Source: Gammaproteobacteria bacterium (GTDB lineage: Bacteria > Pseudomonadota > Gammaproteobacteria > Steroidobacterales > PWYM01). Taken from it: 49,291 nt of DNA. Below the pieces are notes generated by a model. That model did no database searches. It saw only the letters and a program-made list of their open reading frames with translations, and was not told the DNA's origin. The first letter of the stretch is position 1, and every line of letters starts with the position of its first letter. Below, piece by piece: positions 32,772-40,694 of this stretch. The translations under genes and the position numbers were made by a program. The DNA lies in assembly GCA_020832005.1 (NCBI GenBank), contig JAFIFN010000008.1, positions 1-49,291 on the forward strand. The letters are read 5' to 3'.

Positions 32772-33159
32772 GCAAAGAACTCCCGGAGACGTGGTCCGAT
32801 GGCATCGAGGTGCAGCATTCTACCAACAGATACCGGGCAGGAGGTTCAGTGCCCTGTCGCGGCCATTCGCACTCTACCCAGGCAGCACCGCAAACCCTGA
32901 GCCACGGCCCGTCGGCCCTTGGCGTTCAGTTGACAAGCATGCCCCCCTGGGCGAGCATCCAGATGGCCCCACGCCTGCTGTTCTGGTCCAGATTTGCATG
33001 ACGCAGACGCCCACTTGCGGGGCTGGCAATCAAGAGACGACAGCACCTCTACCGCAGGCTCCCAGGGGCACGCTCTGAATGACACTCAATCCTTGCGCGC
33101 CCTGGGTCCCGCCCAGGCCGCCTCATCTGGCATTGTGAATCACGATGCAGGAGAAACTC
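32772..33159. other. Intergenic region before rnk
   Basis: 388 bp between two divergent genes. It holds a GC-rich hairpin, CCTGGG-TCCCG-CCCAGG (33101-33117), about 40 bp before rnk, with no T-run. A TTGACA hexamer near 32929 lacks a fitting -10 box. I see no further gene or RNA. Confidence 0.5.
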
Positions 33160-33570
33160 ATGAACACGATGCCCAACGTCGTCATCTCCTCCGTAGACGC
33201 CGAAAGACTGGAGAAACTCCTGGAGAAGCTGCCAGCGCGAGCCCCGGGGAAGGCCGAACTCGAGGCGGAGCTGTCACGCGCGCTTATCGTCGACTCCAAG
33301 GACGTTCCGCCGGGAGTCGTCACAATGAACTCTACGGTAAAGTTCAGAGTCCAGTCTTCACCGGACGAATTTCGCATGACACTCGTCTACCCGAAGGATC
33401 TCGACGACGCTGGTGACAAGATCTCAATCCTCGCGCCCGTAGGCAGCGCGCTGCTCGGGCTGTCACAGGGCGACCAGATCGAGTGGCCCAAGCCGGGTGG
33501 AGGATCGTTGCAGGTACGCATCGAGGACGTGGTTTATCAACCCGAACGCGCCGGCGAGCATCACCGCTGA
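33160..33570 (+). CDS. rnk: Nucleoside diphosphate kinase regulator Rnk
   Basis: RNA-polymerase-binding protein of the GreA/GreB C-terminal family. In E. coli and Pseudomonas it affects nucleoside diphosphate kinase and polyphosphate-related regulation. ATG 33160 with GGAG 8 bp ahead gives 136 residues, the exact length of E. coli Rnk; an ATG five codons upstream overlaps the ribosome site. The N-terminal helices (VDAERLEKLLEKLP) are shorter than the Gre coiled coil. The FKBP-like part has MNSTVKFRV, FRMTLVYPKDLDDAGDKISILAPVGSALLGLSQGDQIEW, typical of Rnk. Confidence 0.93.
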   Translation: MNTMPNVVISSVDAERLEKLLEKLPARAPGKAELEAELSRALIVDSKDVPPGVVTMNSTVKFRVQSSPDEFRMTLVYPKDLDDAGDKISILAPVGSALLGLSQGDQIEWPKPGGGSLQVRIEDVVYQPERAGEHHR

Positions 33571-33580
33571 GGACCAGGCG

Positions 33581-33643
33581 ATGAAAGTTTCCACGCAGGG
33601 AGCGCTCGGCCTCCCTCGGCGGCGCGACCACCTCGCAATCTGA
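33581..33643 (+). CDS. Possible 20-codon leader ORF
   Basis: An ATG at 33581 with GAGG 9 bp ahead (overlapping the rnk stop) opens a frame of 20 codons. Its TGA overlaps the ATG of the next large gene (TGATG at 33641-33645). The large gene has no ribosome site of its own, so it could be translated by coupling to this ORF. The peptide is basic near its end (LPRRRDHL) and matches nothing I know. It may be chance. Confidence 0.3.
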   Translation: MKVSTQGALGLPRRRDHLAI

Positions 33644-36264
33644 TGCCCGCGACCGAACCCGGAGTGCCCGTTTCCACGGGCTTACCCGCCCTCGACAAGG
33701 TTCTGGACAGCCTGCGCATCGGCGATAATGTCGTCTGGCGCGTTGATGACCTCGACGATTACCGGCACTTTGTGCAGTCATTTGTGCGCGAGGCAGCCGC
33801 GTCGCGCCGGGAAATCATCTACGCCCGCTTCGGCGCGCATCCTCCGTTGATCGAGCCTGGGGCGCACGTACACATCGTGCAGCTTGATGCTCTGGACGGA
33901 TTCGAGGCGTTCACTCGCGAAACCTACCAGCTGATTACTGCCCACGGTCAGGGCGCCTTTTACGTCTTCGATTGCCTTTCTGATCTTCTATCGGCCTGGG
34001 CCACGGACGTCATGATCGGCAATCTGTTCCGTGTCATCTGTCCACGCCTCTTCAGGCTTAACACAGTCGCCTACTTTGCACTGCTGGCTCGGCGGCATTC
34101 GTTCCAGACAATGGGACGAATTCGCGAGACTACTCAGGTATTGATCGATGTGCGCCGGGCCAAGGGCTGCCGCTACATCCAGCCCGTTAAAGCGTGGAAG
34201 CGCCGCTCTCCCACCATGTTTCTGCCTCACCTGGAGCGCGGCGGCACCTTCGAGCCGGTGGTCGACAGTTCAAGCGCCGCTCGCCTCGAGGCGGCCTTCT
34301 GGCGGCACGGAGACGCTACGGTGCCCGAGCTGGACTATTGGGACAGATTGTTCCGAGAGGCTGCAGAACTTGCCGCGCGCGAACCCGAAGCCGAAGAGCG
34401 CCAGAATCTGATCGATCGGCTATGCCGGCTGGTCATGAGTCGCGACGAGCGTGTGGTGTCTCTCGCGCGGCGTCACGTCACGCTCGATGACCTGGTCGGG
34501 CTACGGCAGCGCATGATCGGCACCGGTTTCATCGGTGGCAAAGCCGTGGGCATGCTACTGGCGTGGCGGATCCTTATGGCCGATGCGCCGGATGTATGGA
34601 CCACCCACCTTGATCCCAATGATTCGTTTTTTGTCGGCACCGATGTGTACTACTCCTGGCTGGTGCACAACGATTGGTGGCCGCGCGTCATGCGCCAACG
34701 GACCGAGGAAGGATATTTCGAAGAGGCGGCGGCACTGTATCCCGATATGCTGACCAGCCGCTTGCCGGAAGGGCTGCGTCCAGCGCTTGAGCGCATGCTC
34801 GATTATTTCGGCCAATATCCAATCCTGGTGCGCTCAAGCAGCATGCAGGAGGACGGGTTCGGCAACGCCTTCGCGGGCAAGTACGAGAGCGTCTTCTGTG
34901 TCAATCAGGGCACGCCCGAGCACCGGTTCGAACAGCTGGAGCATGCCATATGCCGAGTGTTCGCGAGCACGATGAGCGAAGACGCGTTGGTCTATCGCCG
35001 CGAGCGTGGTCTGACTCAGGGGGAGGAGCCGATGGCACTGCTGCTGCAGCGGGTCAACGGCCGCTACCGTGGTCGCCACTATCTGCCGGATGCCGCCGGC
35101 GTTGCGGTTTCGCGCAACATCTTTGCCTGGGCACCCGAGATGGATCCGAACGCCGGTATGGTACGCATGGTGATGGGGCTCGGCACTCGGGCGGTCGATC
35201 GCATCGACGGTGACTACGCCTGCGTCATCGCGCTCGATCAGCCGCACCGACGCCCGTATAGCGAAGAGCAGGCGCCACGCTACTCGCAGCACGACCTGGA
35301 TGTGCTCGACATTGACGATAACCGCCTGCGCACGCTGCCGCTGCGCCAACTCGCGGGCCAGGCCGCCGAACTGCCACTCAAATGGTGCGCGGTACGCGAC
35401 GAAGAGGCGAGCAAGCAGGCTCGCCAGCTCGGTAGCGCTCCCGTCTGGCGCGTCAACTTCCGGGCGCTGCTTGACGAGACGGCTTTCGTGTCGCTGACAC
35501 GCAGAATGCTGGCCGCGCTTGAGCGCGAGTACGCTTATCCGGTGGACGTTGAGTACACGCTTCAGATCACCTCGGACGGCACACCGAAGTTCAACATTGT
35601 GCAGTGCCGGCCCCTGCAGACCCTCGGTATCGGTCATGCGGTTGAGCTCCCCGCAATGGTGGCCGACGAGGACCTTCTTTTTGCCTCCCAAGGGCATTTC
35701 TTGGGGGGAAGCATCGACAGGCCTATCGATCGGGTCATCAAGGTCAACGCGAAACGATACGCGCGGCTGCCTACGGACCGCAGACACGATATCGCACGCA
35801 TCATTGGTCGATATACCCGATCGGGCGCAGGGGCTGCGCGCCAGGAGCGCTCGACACTTCTGATCGGACCGGGTCGATGGGGCAGCAGCTCACCCGAGCT
35901 CGGCGTGCCCATACGATTTGGCGACATCAGCCAGGTTGCGGTGCTGGTCGAAGTCGCAGAGATGGACGGCGGAGTCGAGCCTGAGCCGTCCTACGGCTCC
36001 CACTTCTTCCAGGATCTGGTGGAGTCGGAAACTGCCTATGTCGCGCTATATCCGCGCCGTCCGGAGTGTCGCTACAACCCGGCCTGGCTGGACGAAATGC
36101 CGGCCGATCACCAGGCTAGGGAAGCGCTGGTGATTGACGGTGCCGTCGACCGGGACACGGCTCTGGCCGTGGATGTATACGACCTGCGAGGCCAGCGATT
36201 GCGGCTGCAGGCGGACGTACGCACCCAGCGGGTGATCTGCTATCGCACGAAGGCTGGCGGCTGA
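33643..36264 (+). CDS. KaiC/RecA-like domain fused to PEP-synthase-type ATP-grasp domain
   Basis: An 873-residue protein. Residues 10-200 resemble a KaiC/RecA fold (STGLPALDKVLDSLRIGDNVVW, then YVFDCLSDLL and IRETTQVLIDVRR), but the P-loop place reads RVDDLDDY with no GKT. Residues 290-660 form the ATP-grasp/PEP-pyruvate-binding domain of PEP synthase and PPDK: GFIGGKAVGM with Lys300, VRSSSMQEDGFGNAFAGKYES with Arg397 and Glu403, GLGTRAVDR, DVEYTL with Glu637, and closing QCRPLQT. The phosphohistidine swivel domain and PEP-binding barrel of the full enzymes are absent. A last domain (735-800) carries GPGRWGSSSPELG and SHFFQDLVES, which I know only from similar uncharacterised proteins. It could phosphorylate an unknown partner. 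It follows rnk and ends 1 bp from the converging gdhA. Confidence 0.8.
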   Translation: MPATEPGVPVSTGLPALDKVLDSLRIGDNVVWRVDDLDDYRHFVQSFVREAAASRREIIYARFGAHPPLIEPGAHVHIVQLDALDGFEAFTRETYQLITAHGQGAFYVFDCLSDLLSAWATDVMIGNLFRVICPRLFRLNTVAYFALLARRHSFQTMGRIRETTQVLIDVRRAKGCRYIQPVKAWKRRSPTMFLPHLERGGTFEPVVDSSSAARLEAAFWRHGDATVPELDYWDRLFREAAELAAREPEAEERQNLIDRLCRLVMSRDERVVSLARRHVTLDDLVGLRQRMIGTGFIGGKAVGMLLAWRILMADAPDVWTTHLDPNDSFFVGTDVYYSWLVHNDWWPRVMRQRTEEGYFEEAAALYPDMLTSRLPEGLRPALERMLDYFGQYPILVRSSSMQEDGFGNAFAGKYESVFCVNQGTPEHRFEQLEHAICRVFASTMSEDALVYRRERGLTQGEEPMALLLQRVNGRYRGRHYLPDAAGVAVSRNIFAWAPEMDPNAGMVRMVMGLGTRAVDRIDGDYACVIALDQPHRRPYSEEQAPRYSQHDLDVLDIDDNRLRTLPLRQLAGQAAELPLKWCAVRDEEASKQARQLGSAPVWRVNFRALLDETAFVSLTRRMLAALEREYAYPVDVEYTLQITSDGTPKFNIVQCRPLQTLGIGHAVELPAMVADEDLLFASQGHFLGGSIDRPIDRVIKVNAKRYARLPTDRRHDIARIIGRYTRSGAGAARQERSTLLIGPGRWGSSSPELGVPIRFGDISQVAVLVEVAEMDGGVEPEPSYGSHFFQDLVESETAYVALYPRRPECRYNPAWLDEMPADHQAREALVIDGAVDRDTALAVDVYDLRGQRLRLQADVRTQRVICYRTKAGG

Positions 36265-36265
36265 C

Positions 36266-37993
<1,728 letters not shown>

Positions 37994-39187
37994 ATGTATC
38001 GCATCCTGGTGCTCGGGGCCGGCAAGATCGGGGCATTGATCAGCGCGATGCTCGCAAGCAGCGATGATTTTAACGTGTATCTGGCAGACCGCGATCTGCG
38101 GCTGGCCGAGCAGGCCCCTTCCCATCCGCGGATCACGCCCGTCGAGCTCGACGCGGCCGAGCCAAAGGCATTGGGGGCCTGGCTGGCGGATCACCCGGCG
38201 GACGCGGTGATCTCCAGTCTCCCCTACTACCTCAACGTACAGGTCGCCCGTGCAGCCCGCCGCGCCGGTACGCATTACTTCGACCTCACCGAGGATATTG
38301 CGGTCACCCGCGAGGTGCGCCGCATCGCCGCACACACACCGATGAGCTTTGCCCCGCAATGCGGACTTGCGCCGGGCTTCATCAGCATCGTAGCCAACGA
38401 GCTGATGGGCCACTTCGATGAACCCAGGGTCGTCAAGCTGCGCGTCGGCGCCCTGCCCCAGCACCCCAACAACGTACTGAAGTATTCCCTGAACTGGTCT
38501 ACCGAAGGGCTGATCAACGAGTATGCCAATGTCGGTCAGGCGATTATCGATGGCGTGATCAGCGAAGTCCTGCCGCTGGAGGGCCGCGAGGAAATCGAGA
38601 TCGACGGCACCTCTTACGAGGCCTTCAACACCTCTGGCGGGCTCGGTTCGCTGGCCGAAACCCATGCCGGACGCGTGGAACGCATGGACTACAAGACCAT
38701 GCGTTACCCCGGCCATTGTGAGCAGATGCGCCTGCTGCTCAATGGTCTGAAGCTGCGAAACGACCGCGACACACTCAAGCGCATCCTGGAAAACGCCGTG
38801 CCGCAGACGCTGCAGGACGTGGTGGTCATCTACGCCAGCGTAGAAGGTCTGCAGGAGGGGCGCCTGCGCGAGGAGAACTACGTCAACAAGGTATATCCGC
38901 AGGTCATTGCCGGGCGGCTGTGGTCAGCCATCCAGGTCACGACCGCCGCGGGCGTGTGCAGTGTGGTGGACCTGATACTGGCCGACCCTGCCGCCTACCA
39001 GGGGTTCGTGGCCATGGAGCGCTTCGGGCTCAAGGATATCGTCGACAATCGCTTCGGCCGGCATTTTGCCCAGGGCGGCAGCAGCGCGCTGTCTGCGCGA
39101 CTCGTTGCCGCCGGTGCGACCAGGGATCCTGACGCCGTTGACGATACGCGCGCATCCATAAGCCTCGAGGGTGCCGGCCATGCATGA
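37994..39187 (+). CDS. Saccharopine dehydrogenase-family protein
   Basis: Likely oxidises saccharopine to 2-aminoadipate 6-semialdehyde plus glutamate, a step of lysine breakdown. The 397-residue protein begins with a Rossmann motif [15 protein letters not shown] (Gly8, Gly10, Gly13). It continues with [36 protein letters not shown] and [18 protein letters not shown], all typical of the saccharopine dehydrogenase catalytic domain. GGGAG lies just ahead of ATG 37994. It lacks a fused lysine-ketoglutarate reductase domain. It overlaps the next gene by 8 bp. That neighbour is the enzyme for the following step, which strongly supports the lysine role over other members of this broad family. Confidence 0.87.
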
Positions 39188-40694
39188 AGTACTGGCGCGC
39201 CTCGGACTGAAAAATGACAACGACGGCGTCTACGACGGACACTGGCGGCGCGGCAGCGGCGCCCTGCTCGAGTCGCTCAATCCGGCCGACGAAGCCCGTC
39301 TGGCGCGTGTGCACTCGGCAGGCCCCGAGGACTATGAACGTGTCGTCACGGCCGCGCAGCAGGCAGCCGCCCGCTGGCGAATGCTGCCGGCGCCCGCGCG
39401 CGGCGATGCGGTGCGGCTCATTGCGGATGCCCTGCGCCGACACAAGGCCGCACTCGGTGCGCTGGTCAGCCTCGAGATGGGCAAGATCCGCAGCGAGGGT
39501 GAAGGCGAGGTCCAGGAGATGATTGACATCGCGGATTTCGCCGTCGGTCAGTCGCGCATGCTCTACGGCCGCACCATGCACTCCGAGCGCCCACGCCACC
39601 GCATGTACGAGCAGTGGCATCCGCTCGGTGTCGTCGGCATCGTCACCGCCTTCAATTTTCCAGTGGCGGTGTGGGCCTGGAATGCGCTGATCGCCGCCGT
39701 GTGCGGCAACGCCAGCGTATGGCGTCCGTCACCGAAGGCACCCCTGTGCGCAATCGCCGTCCAGCGCATCGTCAACGAGGCGCTGGCGGCTGAAGATCTG
39801 CCACCGGTATTCCAGCTGCTGATCGATGCCGACATCGAACTGGCCCAGCGCATGGCCGATGATCGACGCATCGACCTGCTGTCATTTACCGGCTCGACAC
39901 CGGCCGGACGCGCCGTGGCGCAACGTGTCGCAGCCCGTCTCGGGCGAAGCCTGCTCGAACTGGGCGGCAACAACGCAATCATCGTCGATGCGCATGCCAA
40001 CCTCGATCTTGCGGTTCCAGCCATTGTTTTCGGCGCCGTGGGCACGGCGGGACAGCGCTGTACGACGACGCGTCGCGTGCTGGTGCATGCATCCATGCGC
40101 GAGGCATTGGAAGCGCGCCTGCTGGCCGCCTACGAGCAGGTGCGTATCGGTGATCCGCTGGCCGAGGGCACGCTGATGGGTCCGCTGATCGATGAGGCGG
40201 CGGTAGATGGCTATCGTAAGGCCATCCAGCGCGCCCGGGACGCCGGCGGCGAGGTGCTGTGTGGCGATCGCGTGGTCTCCGGCGTTGGCCACTTCGTGGA
40301 GCCCACAATCATCCGCGCGCGCAATGAATGGGAAGTCGTGCAGCAGGAAGTCTTCGCACCCATCCTCTACCTCATCGAGGTAGCTGATCTCGACGAGGCC
40401 ATCACCGCACATAACGCCGTCGCCCAGGGGCTGTCCTCGGCAATTTTCACCGATCGGCTGCAGTCGGCCGAACAATTTCTATCGCACGCCGGCAGTGACT
40501 GCGGCATCGCCAACGTCAATATCGGCACCTCGGGGGCGGAGATCGGCGGTGCCTTCGGCGGCGAGAAAGACACCGGCGGTGGACGCGAAGCCGGTTCGGA
40601 TGCCTGGAAGGCCTACATGCGCCGCCAGACCACGACGATCAATTACGGCGATGACCTCCCATTGGCCCAGGGCATTGATTTCCGGTTGTCCTGA
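39180..40694 (+). CDS. Aminoadipate-semialdehyde dehydrogenase (ALDH7 type)
   Basis: Oxidises 2-aminoadipate 6-semialdehyde (or its cyclic form, piperideine-6-carboxylate) to 2-aminoadipate with NAD. The 504-residue protein belongs to the ALDH7/AmaB group. It has [13 protein letters not shown] with Asn160, LELGGNN with Glu260, GQRCTTTRR with the nucleophile Cys294, and the ALDH7-specific [13 protein letters not shown] and [12 protein letters not shown] near the end. ATG 39180 overlaps the preceding stop by 8 bp, with GAGG ahead. A GTG three codons upstream is less likely. The coupling means stoichiometric production with the saccharopine enzyme. Confidence 0.94.

Follow-up and report, generated by a model that had tools for sequence, protein, structure and literature searches.

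The stretch of DNA analysed here, which we call the window, spans 49,291 nucleotides and carries on its forward strand an ORF (33643-36264) encoding a protein of 873 amino acids, called PPX below. PPX lies 72 bp downstream of a Rnk-like gene on the same strand and is convergent to gdhA, which encodes a glutamate dehydrogenase (GDH), with a single base between the two ORFs. The genes and protein features at this locus are as follows.

33145..33570, forward strand: Rnk-like nucleoside diphosphate kinase regulator (NF004396, E 3e-45).
33643..36264, forward strand: coding sequence of the GDH-linked ATP-grasp protein PPX, 873 aa (full-length homologues; PF01326).
33643..34332, forward strand: residues 1-230, a pseudo-KaiC (RecA-like) domain without Walker A, probably an input or sensor domain (Foldseek matches to KaiC/FlaH; domain shared with HTH proteins at L093, L103, and L088).
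34531..35634, forward strand: residues 297-664, PPDK_N ATP-grasp domain with K300, R397, E403, E637, Q654, and R656 intact (PF01326; invariance; alignment with the genome's own PpsA).
35635..36261, forward strand: residues 665-873, unclassified C-terminal domain (no Pfam, PDB, or Foldseek match; confident AlphaFold2 fold).
35866..35886, forward strand: GPGRWGS motif, residues 742-748 (near-invariant across three architectures).
36001..36003, forward strand: His787 in G[ST]HFF, a candidate phosphoacceptor or catalytic base (invariant in 62/62 members).
36266..37615, reverse strand: gdhA, NADP-specific glutamate dehydrogenase, a conserved partner (NF006929, E 2e-228; neighbourhood statistics).

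Beyond gdhA, at 37994-40694, we observed a saccharopine dehydrogenase-like gene, recognized by Pfam, and a gene that by its appearance may encode an aldehyde dehydrogenase; the two possibly belong to a lysine-to-glutamate pathway. A conserved role for the Rnk-like gene was rejected because no Rnk match was found in the other PPX neighbourhoods. A scan of the window for sigma-54 -24/-12 sites, allowing 2 mismatches, gave 76 hits where 70 would be expected by chance and thus no excess.

Full-length homologues share 35-57% identity with the window protein. Its only Pfam match was to PPDK_N (PF01326), across residues 297-664 (profile positions 4-315 of 328, E 1.7e-41), which bears out the complete ATP-grasp domain described in an initial annotation; no Pfam family was found for the N-terminal 230 or the C-terminal 209 residues. 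That annotation had also described the phosphohistidine and PEP-binding domains of PEP synthase as missing, and indeed Pfam detected neither PF00391 (PEP-utilizers) nor PF02896 (PEP-utilizers_C) in the window protein or in any of 46 homologues. NCBIfam gave weak PEP synthase matches, far under the cut-off. An AlphaFold2 model of PPX, with 46 homologues as input, had a pLDDT of 86.4 and a pTM of 0.87. Foldseek matched this model to KaiC and FlaH and, for the ATP-grasp domain, to rifampin phosphotransferase and HpeI, the nearest solved ATP-grasp structures being 5hv3 and 9goj (rifampin phosphotransferase/dikinase group). HpeI is an ATP-grasp component without a His domain (PMC12167813).

Within the ATP-grasp domain, the residues previously singled out as key (Lys300, Arg397, Glu403, and Glu637) were invariant in 62/62 aligned members, as was Arg656. 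Across the three architectures described below, the invariant or near-invariant positions of this domain were G298, G299, K300, R397, S398-S400, E403, D404, E637, Q654, and R656. R397, E403, E637, Q654, and R656 also align with the canonical PpsA of the window's own genome (hhalign probability 98%). A tblastn search of PPX neighbourhoods with the His domain of this PpsA gave no match at E<=0.01, and a split dikinase whose swivel subunit is encoded nearby was therefore rejected.

The KaiC and FlaH matches to the PPX model had E-values of 2e-9 to 3e-8 (KaiC, 2e-9) over ~230 aligned columns. We infer that they fall on residues 1-230 from this aligned length and from the sequence match between residues 4-195 and stand-alone proteins that have a weak KaiC (PF06745) hit. 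Together with a model pLDDT that stays near 90 over most of residues 10-210, these matches support the RecA/KaiC-like N-terminal fold proposed in the initial annotation. The loss of the P-loop was likewise upheld: Walker A ([AG]x4GK[ST]) was absent from the N-domain in 47/47 full-length members, and the sole match to this pattern among them, at residue 587 of L073, lies outside the N-domain. The domain had further been called dead, which holds for ATPase function but not otherwise, as ten of its residues were invariant in a 46-sequence alignment (G27, D28, N29, D110, D122, C133, P134, H152, Q165, and R187). This invariance indicates that the pseudo-KaiC domain is under strong constraint.

A GPGRWGSS motif had been noted as unexplained, and it proved to be a genuine feature: GPGRWG, at residues 742-747, is near-invariant across the three architectures and lies within a separate domain that, in the genomes searched, is confined to proteins with the PPX ATP-grasp domain. 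The invariant or near-invariant positions of this C-terminal domain across the same architectures were G742-G747, E770, S783, G785, H787, F788, and F789; across classes, R745, E770, S783, and H787 (in G[ST]HFF) were invariant alongside the ATP-grasp catalytic set. His787 was the sole histidine invariant in 62/62 aligned members, and it does not lie within a recognizable swivel domain. Modelled alone from 62 sequences with AlphaFold2, the ~210-residue domain reached a pLDDT of 90.7. It belonged to no Pfam family and had no PDB sequence match, and Foldseek searches of PDB (best E 0.2) and BFVD yielded nothing at E<=0.001. Used as the sole query against 247 genomes of one phylum, it was found in 61, exactly those with the whole protein, indicating that in this sample the domain is absent apart from the ATP-grasp domain.

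We define the family by a PPDK_N domain together with a C-terminal GPGRWG...G[ST]HFF domain, and the window protein has both. PPX is thus a member of an unstudied bacterial family present in three phyla: Pseudomonadota (the window, L009, L012, and L110), Thermodesulfobacteriota (L003 and others), and Bacteroidota (Parabacteroides L046 and Phocaeicola L123). In the open-licence literature, we found no paper on the family, on GPGRWGS, or on a PEP synthase near gdhA. Phage and plasmid collections held distant Bacteroidota-type copies only; the phage copies came from unannotated faecal “Bacteriophage sp.” records and may be bacterial DNA. A single-sequence scan of the contig collection recovered one PPX fragment only. 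The maximum-likelihood tree of PPX had no resolved base. In a Desulfurivibrio MAG (L003:5099-5700), PPX follows gdhA in pieces of different frames near a contig end, reflecting either a damaged gene or an assembly fault.

Across the family, the input domain has been swapped among pseudo-KaiC, receiver, short helical, and probably GAF-like forms. The full-length pseudo-KaiC form was found in a few Gammaproteobacteria and in Thermodesulfobacteriota, the phylum of Desulfurivibrio. A second class is without the pseudo-KaiC domain, its matches starting near residue 260, and in the Bacteroidota proteins a receiver domain forms the N-terminal part. The N-terminus of L104 looks GAF-like, and a Pfam search of this protein found nothing besides PPDK_N. 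A separate gene for a pseudo-KaiC domain with an HTH is present at two loci of the second class, L093 and L103, and at L088, a locus of the pseudo-KaiC class. The products (L103:13967-15271, L093:4224-5531, and L088:12518-13606) are stand-alone pseudo-KaiC proteins with HTH_3, plus a cupin in L103, and adjoin glutamate-synthase-like or GDH genes. They are probably transcription regulators with the same sensor.

Most of a cell's nitrogen enters, as ammonia, through GDH and glutamate synthase. We fetched the neighbourhoods of 68 PPX copies and grouped their ORFs, which were called mechanically; many of the analysed genomes are drafts. Counts use the 53 copies whose flanks reach 3 kb or more in each direction. 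GDH lay within 3.5 kb of 41/53 copies and within 500 bp of 29/53. With the distance widened to 6 kb, 49/53 had at least one gene for GDH, glutamate synthase, Amt, PII, GlnD, or NrpR. Carrier genomes encode 1-3 GDH-family genes each (40 tested, 2-5.4 Mb), from which we estimate chance proximity at ~0.3% per copy. Recurrent neighbour groups comprised NADP-GDH, archaeal-type GDH, FMN glutamate synthase, Amt, P-II, NrpR, NtrC-like regulators, and GlnD. The linked GDH genes belong to two subfamilies that are ~30% identical (34 NADP-type and 16 archaeal-type genes).

The arrangement of these genes was far from uniform. Among GDH-linked copies, GDH was upstream of PPX on the same strand in 18, downstream on the same strand in 15, convergent in 12, and divergent in 3, and orientation states changed at least 11 times on the maximum-likelihood tree. 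This variety and the number of changes indicate that the coupling does not stem from a single operon passed down by descent. The linkage states (GDH, other nitrogen gene, or none) changed at least nine times on the same tree. GDH lies directly upstream of PPX in L110, on the same strand and 8 bases away, and gdhA adjoins PPX divergently in the Parabacteroides and Phocaeicola records; in the third of the three Bacteroidota records, from Prevotella, gdhA is not divergent and adjacent to the PPX homologue. Four copies (L047, L067, L075, and L107) had no ammonium-assimilation gene nearby despite ample flanks, although genomes G462, G504, and G435 encode GDH at another site.

Several loci carried further genes beside PPX. 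NrpR-type nitrogen repressor genes adjoin PPX in L056, L062, and L088, twice as a pair with one on each side. In L074 (10702-11778), a gene combining a Fic domain with a MarR-type HTH sits on the opposite strand between PPX and gdhA, and the same gene group occupies the equivalent spot in L076-L079 and L083, all of one clade. Two neighbour groups resemble the parts of a split glutamate synthase, group 7 the glutamine amidotransferase and group 23 the GXGXG/reductase part. Neither Pfam nor NCBIfam matched the group 7 members of 377 and 381 aa, and this group is labelled from the look of its sequences and from gene order. The split glutamate synthase clusters of L086 (10692-11837) and L089 (10707-11840) include ~380-aa proteins with an MCRL start, which have the look of class II glutamine amidotransferases; at the thresholds applied, neither Pfam nor NCBIfam gave a match for them.

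The association extended to whole genomes. Within the 247-genome, single-phylum sample, GDH was present in 60/61 PPX carriers vs. 61/186 non-carriers (Fisher p 6e-22, kinship ignored), and in the sole carrier without GDH, G529, the PPX copy lies 2 bases from a contig end. In the window's order, GDH of the window type occurred without PPX in 13 other sampled genomes. Both genes were absent from four congeners, which suggests that they were gained or lost together in the window lineage. Because GDH without PPX is common, GDH does not need PPX, as would fit an accessory or regulator, and so PPX needs GDH more than the reverse. Glutamine synthetase was found in 38/41 carriers, the other three having no match at E<=1e-20, and its replacement by PPX was therefore rejected. 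The homologues and their neighbours thus reveal a widespread family tied to GDH and other ammonium-assimilation genes, and we hold a functional link of the family to this pathway to be very probable.

Since PPX is almost always found beside genes of the ammonia-to-glutamate step, its probable task is to control or power this conversion, and not to serve pyruvate metabolism. The initial annotation had suggested phosphorylation of something other than pyruvate or an ATP-dependent regulator, and the linkage to GDH and ammonium assimilation points in this direction. The reading we favour, with somewhat less than even confidence, is that PPX is a signal-controlled ATP-grasp phosphotransferase or regulator of GDH or glutamate synthase, where target and chemistry are what we infer. 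That it acts on the enzyme itself, as a putative regulator or modifier, is a suggestion we make with similar caution. The architecture would then consist of an input domain, an ATP-grasp engine, and a new effector domain. The input domain would gate the ATP-grasp domain in response to a nitrogen, carbon, or energy signal, and the ATP-grasp domain would split ATP in the manner of PEP synthase. The C-terminal domain would receive the phosphoryl group, with His787 as the likeliest acceptor in place of the missing swivel phosphohistidine, and would in turn modify or control GDH (or glutamate synthase). Besides the linkage and the conserved catalytic residues, signalling elements in PPX proteins and at PPX loci speak for this reading, including the Bacteroidota receiver domain, the pseudo-KaiC HTH/cupin regulators by GOGAT/GDH, NrpR, PII, GlnD, and NtrC-like regulators. 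His787 is a possible, though doubtful, phosphoacceptor. The mechanism as a whole would be a new ATP-driven control of ammonium assimilation in at least three phyla, in which the ATP-grasp domain phosphorylates the His787 domain and this modifies GDH or glutamate synthase under interchangeable sensors, including a KaiC turned sensor; in this complete form, we consider it conceivable but on balance doubtful.

A rather unlikely alternative is that PPX is a metabolic enzyme, an ATP-dependent small-molecule kinase or ligase in the ammonia/2-oxoglutarate/glutamate pathway, with the C-terminal domain as its substrate site. It might then be likened to the small-molecule dikinases (rifampin phosphotransferase, HpeHI, and phenylphosphate synthase), as the PPDK_N ATP-grasp domains of solved function phosphorylate small molecules via a phosphohistidine (PMC12167813). 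The invariant R745, E770, S783, and H787 resemble an active site, and a small-molecule substrate would fit the GDH linkage equally well. However, no swivel-His domain was found in PPX or its neighbourhoods, glutamine synthetase has not been replaced, and PPX is optional in GDH-bearing genomes. The exchange of receiver and pseudo-KaiC input domains also suggests regulation.

Phosphate transfer may not be involved at all if PPX is a non-catalytic ATP-sensing partner which, on binding ATP together with a metabolite, would inhibit, activate, or scaffold GDH or glutamate synthase by direct contact, in a role like that of GarA/OdhI in actinobacteria. That PPX is linked to glutamate synthase and to GDH of two subfamilies is consistent with such a partner, and the pseudo-KaiC domain suggests a history of enzymes turned binding modules. 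Still, the ATP-grasp catalytic residues are invariant in 62/62 members, which would be unusual for a mere ATP binder, and we consider this explanation unlikely.

It is very unlikely that the linkage reflects only shared nitrogen regulation or joint transfer, with the job of PPX elsewhere in the nitrogen response. The joint absence of PPX and window-type GDH from four congeners would fit, but proximity was kept through at least 11 rearrangements, convergent and divergent pairs cannot share a transcript, and the coupling occurs in three phyla. Finally, despite the PPDK_N domain and the sub-threshold NCBIfam matches, a variant PEP synthase or pyruvate dikinase in pyruvate metabolism is barely credible and this role was rejected, given that PPX is without a swivel or PEP-binding domain, that PEP-utilizers_C proteins are encoded elsewhere in 41/41 carriers tested (in the window genome by the canonical PpsA at G000:C269, its only PF02896 match), and that no homologue with a proven function in pyruvate metabolism was found.

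The automatic label “PEP synthase-like” for PPX is therefore misleading. New in this analysis are the three-phylum family, the C-terminal domain confined to it, and the link to ammonium assimilation. PPX has stayed with the GDH and glutamate synthase genes while these were rearranged again and again, in gut Bacteroidota, relatives of sulfate reducers, and some Gammaproteobacteria, which suggests that part of nitrogen control has so far been missed. PPX also couples a PEP-synthase-type ATP-grasp domain to a domain without a detected structural relative, and it reuses a KaiC-like domain without the ATP-binding loop.

Compared with known systems, PPX shares the PPDK_N domain and its catalytic residues with PEP synthase and pyruvate phosphate dikinase (PpsA and PPDK), but it has neither the swivel phosphohistidine domain (GGxT[CS]H) nor the PEP/pyruvate TIM barrel, and its N- and C-terminal domains differ. 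Rifampin phosphotransferase, HpeHI, CreHI, and PpsAB have their swivel-His domain fused or encoded by a partner, whereas none was found for PPX. The N-domain has the fold of the RecA-like ATPases KaiC and FlaH; unlike them, it is a single domain without Walker A, fused to an ATP-grasp engine. Further counterparts are Bacteroidota proteins annotated as “PEP/pyruvate-binding domain-containing protein” (WP_041525632.1 and its kin), which adjoin gdhA and have the same ATP-grasp and GPGRWGS core, but carry a receiver-type N-terminal region in place of the pseudo-KaiC domain and are ~22% identical overall. As for the proposed role, GDH in actinobacteria is regulated by GarA/OdhI, an FHA protein under Ser/Thr kinase control. 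PPX has no known sequence relation to it, yet the role suggested for PPX would be comparable, namely, post-translational control of GDH.
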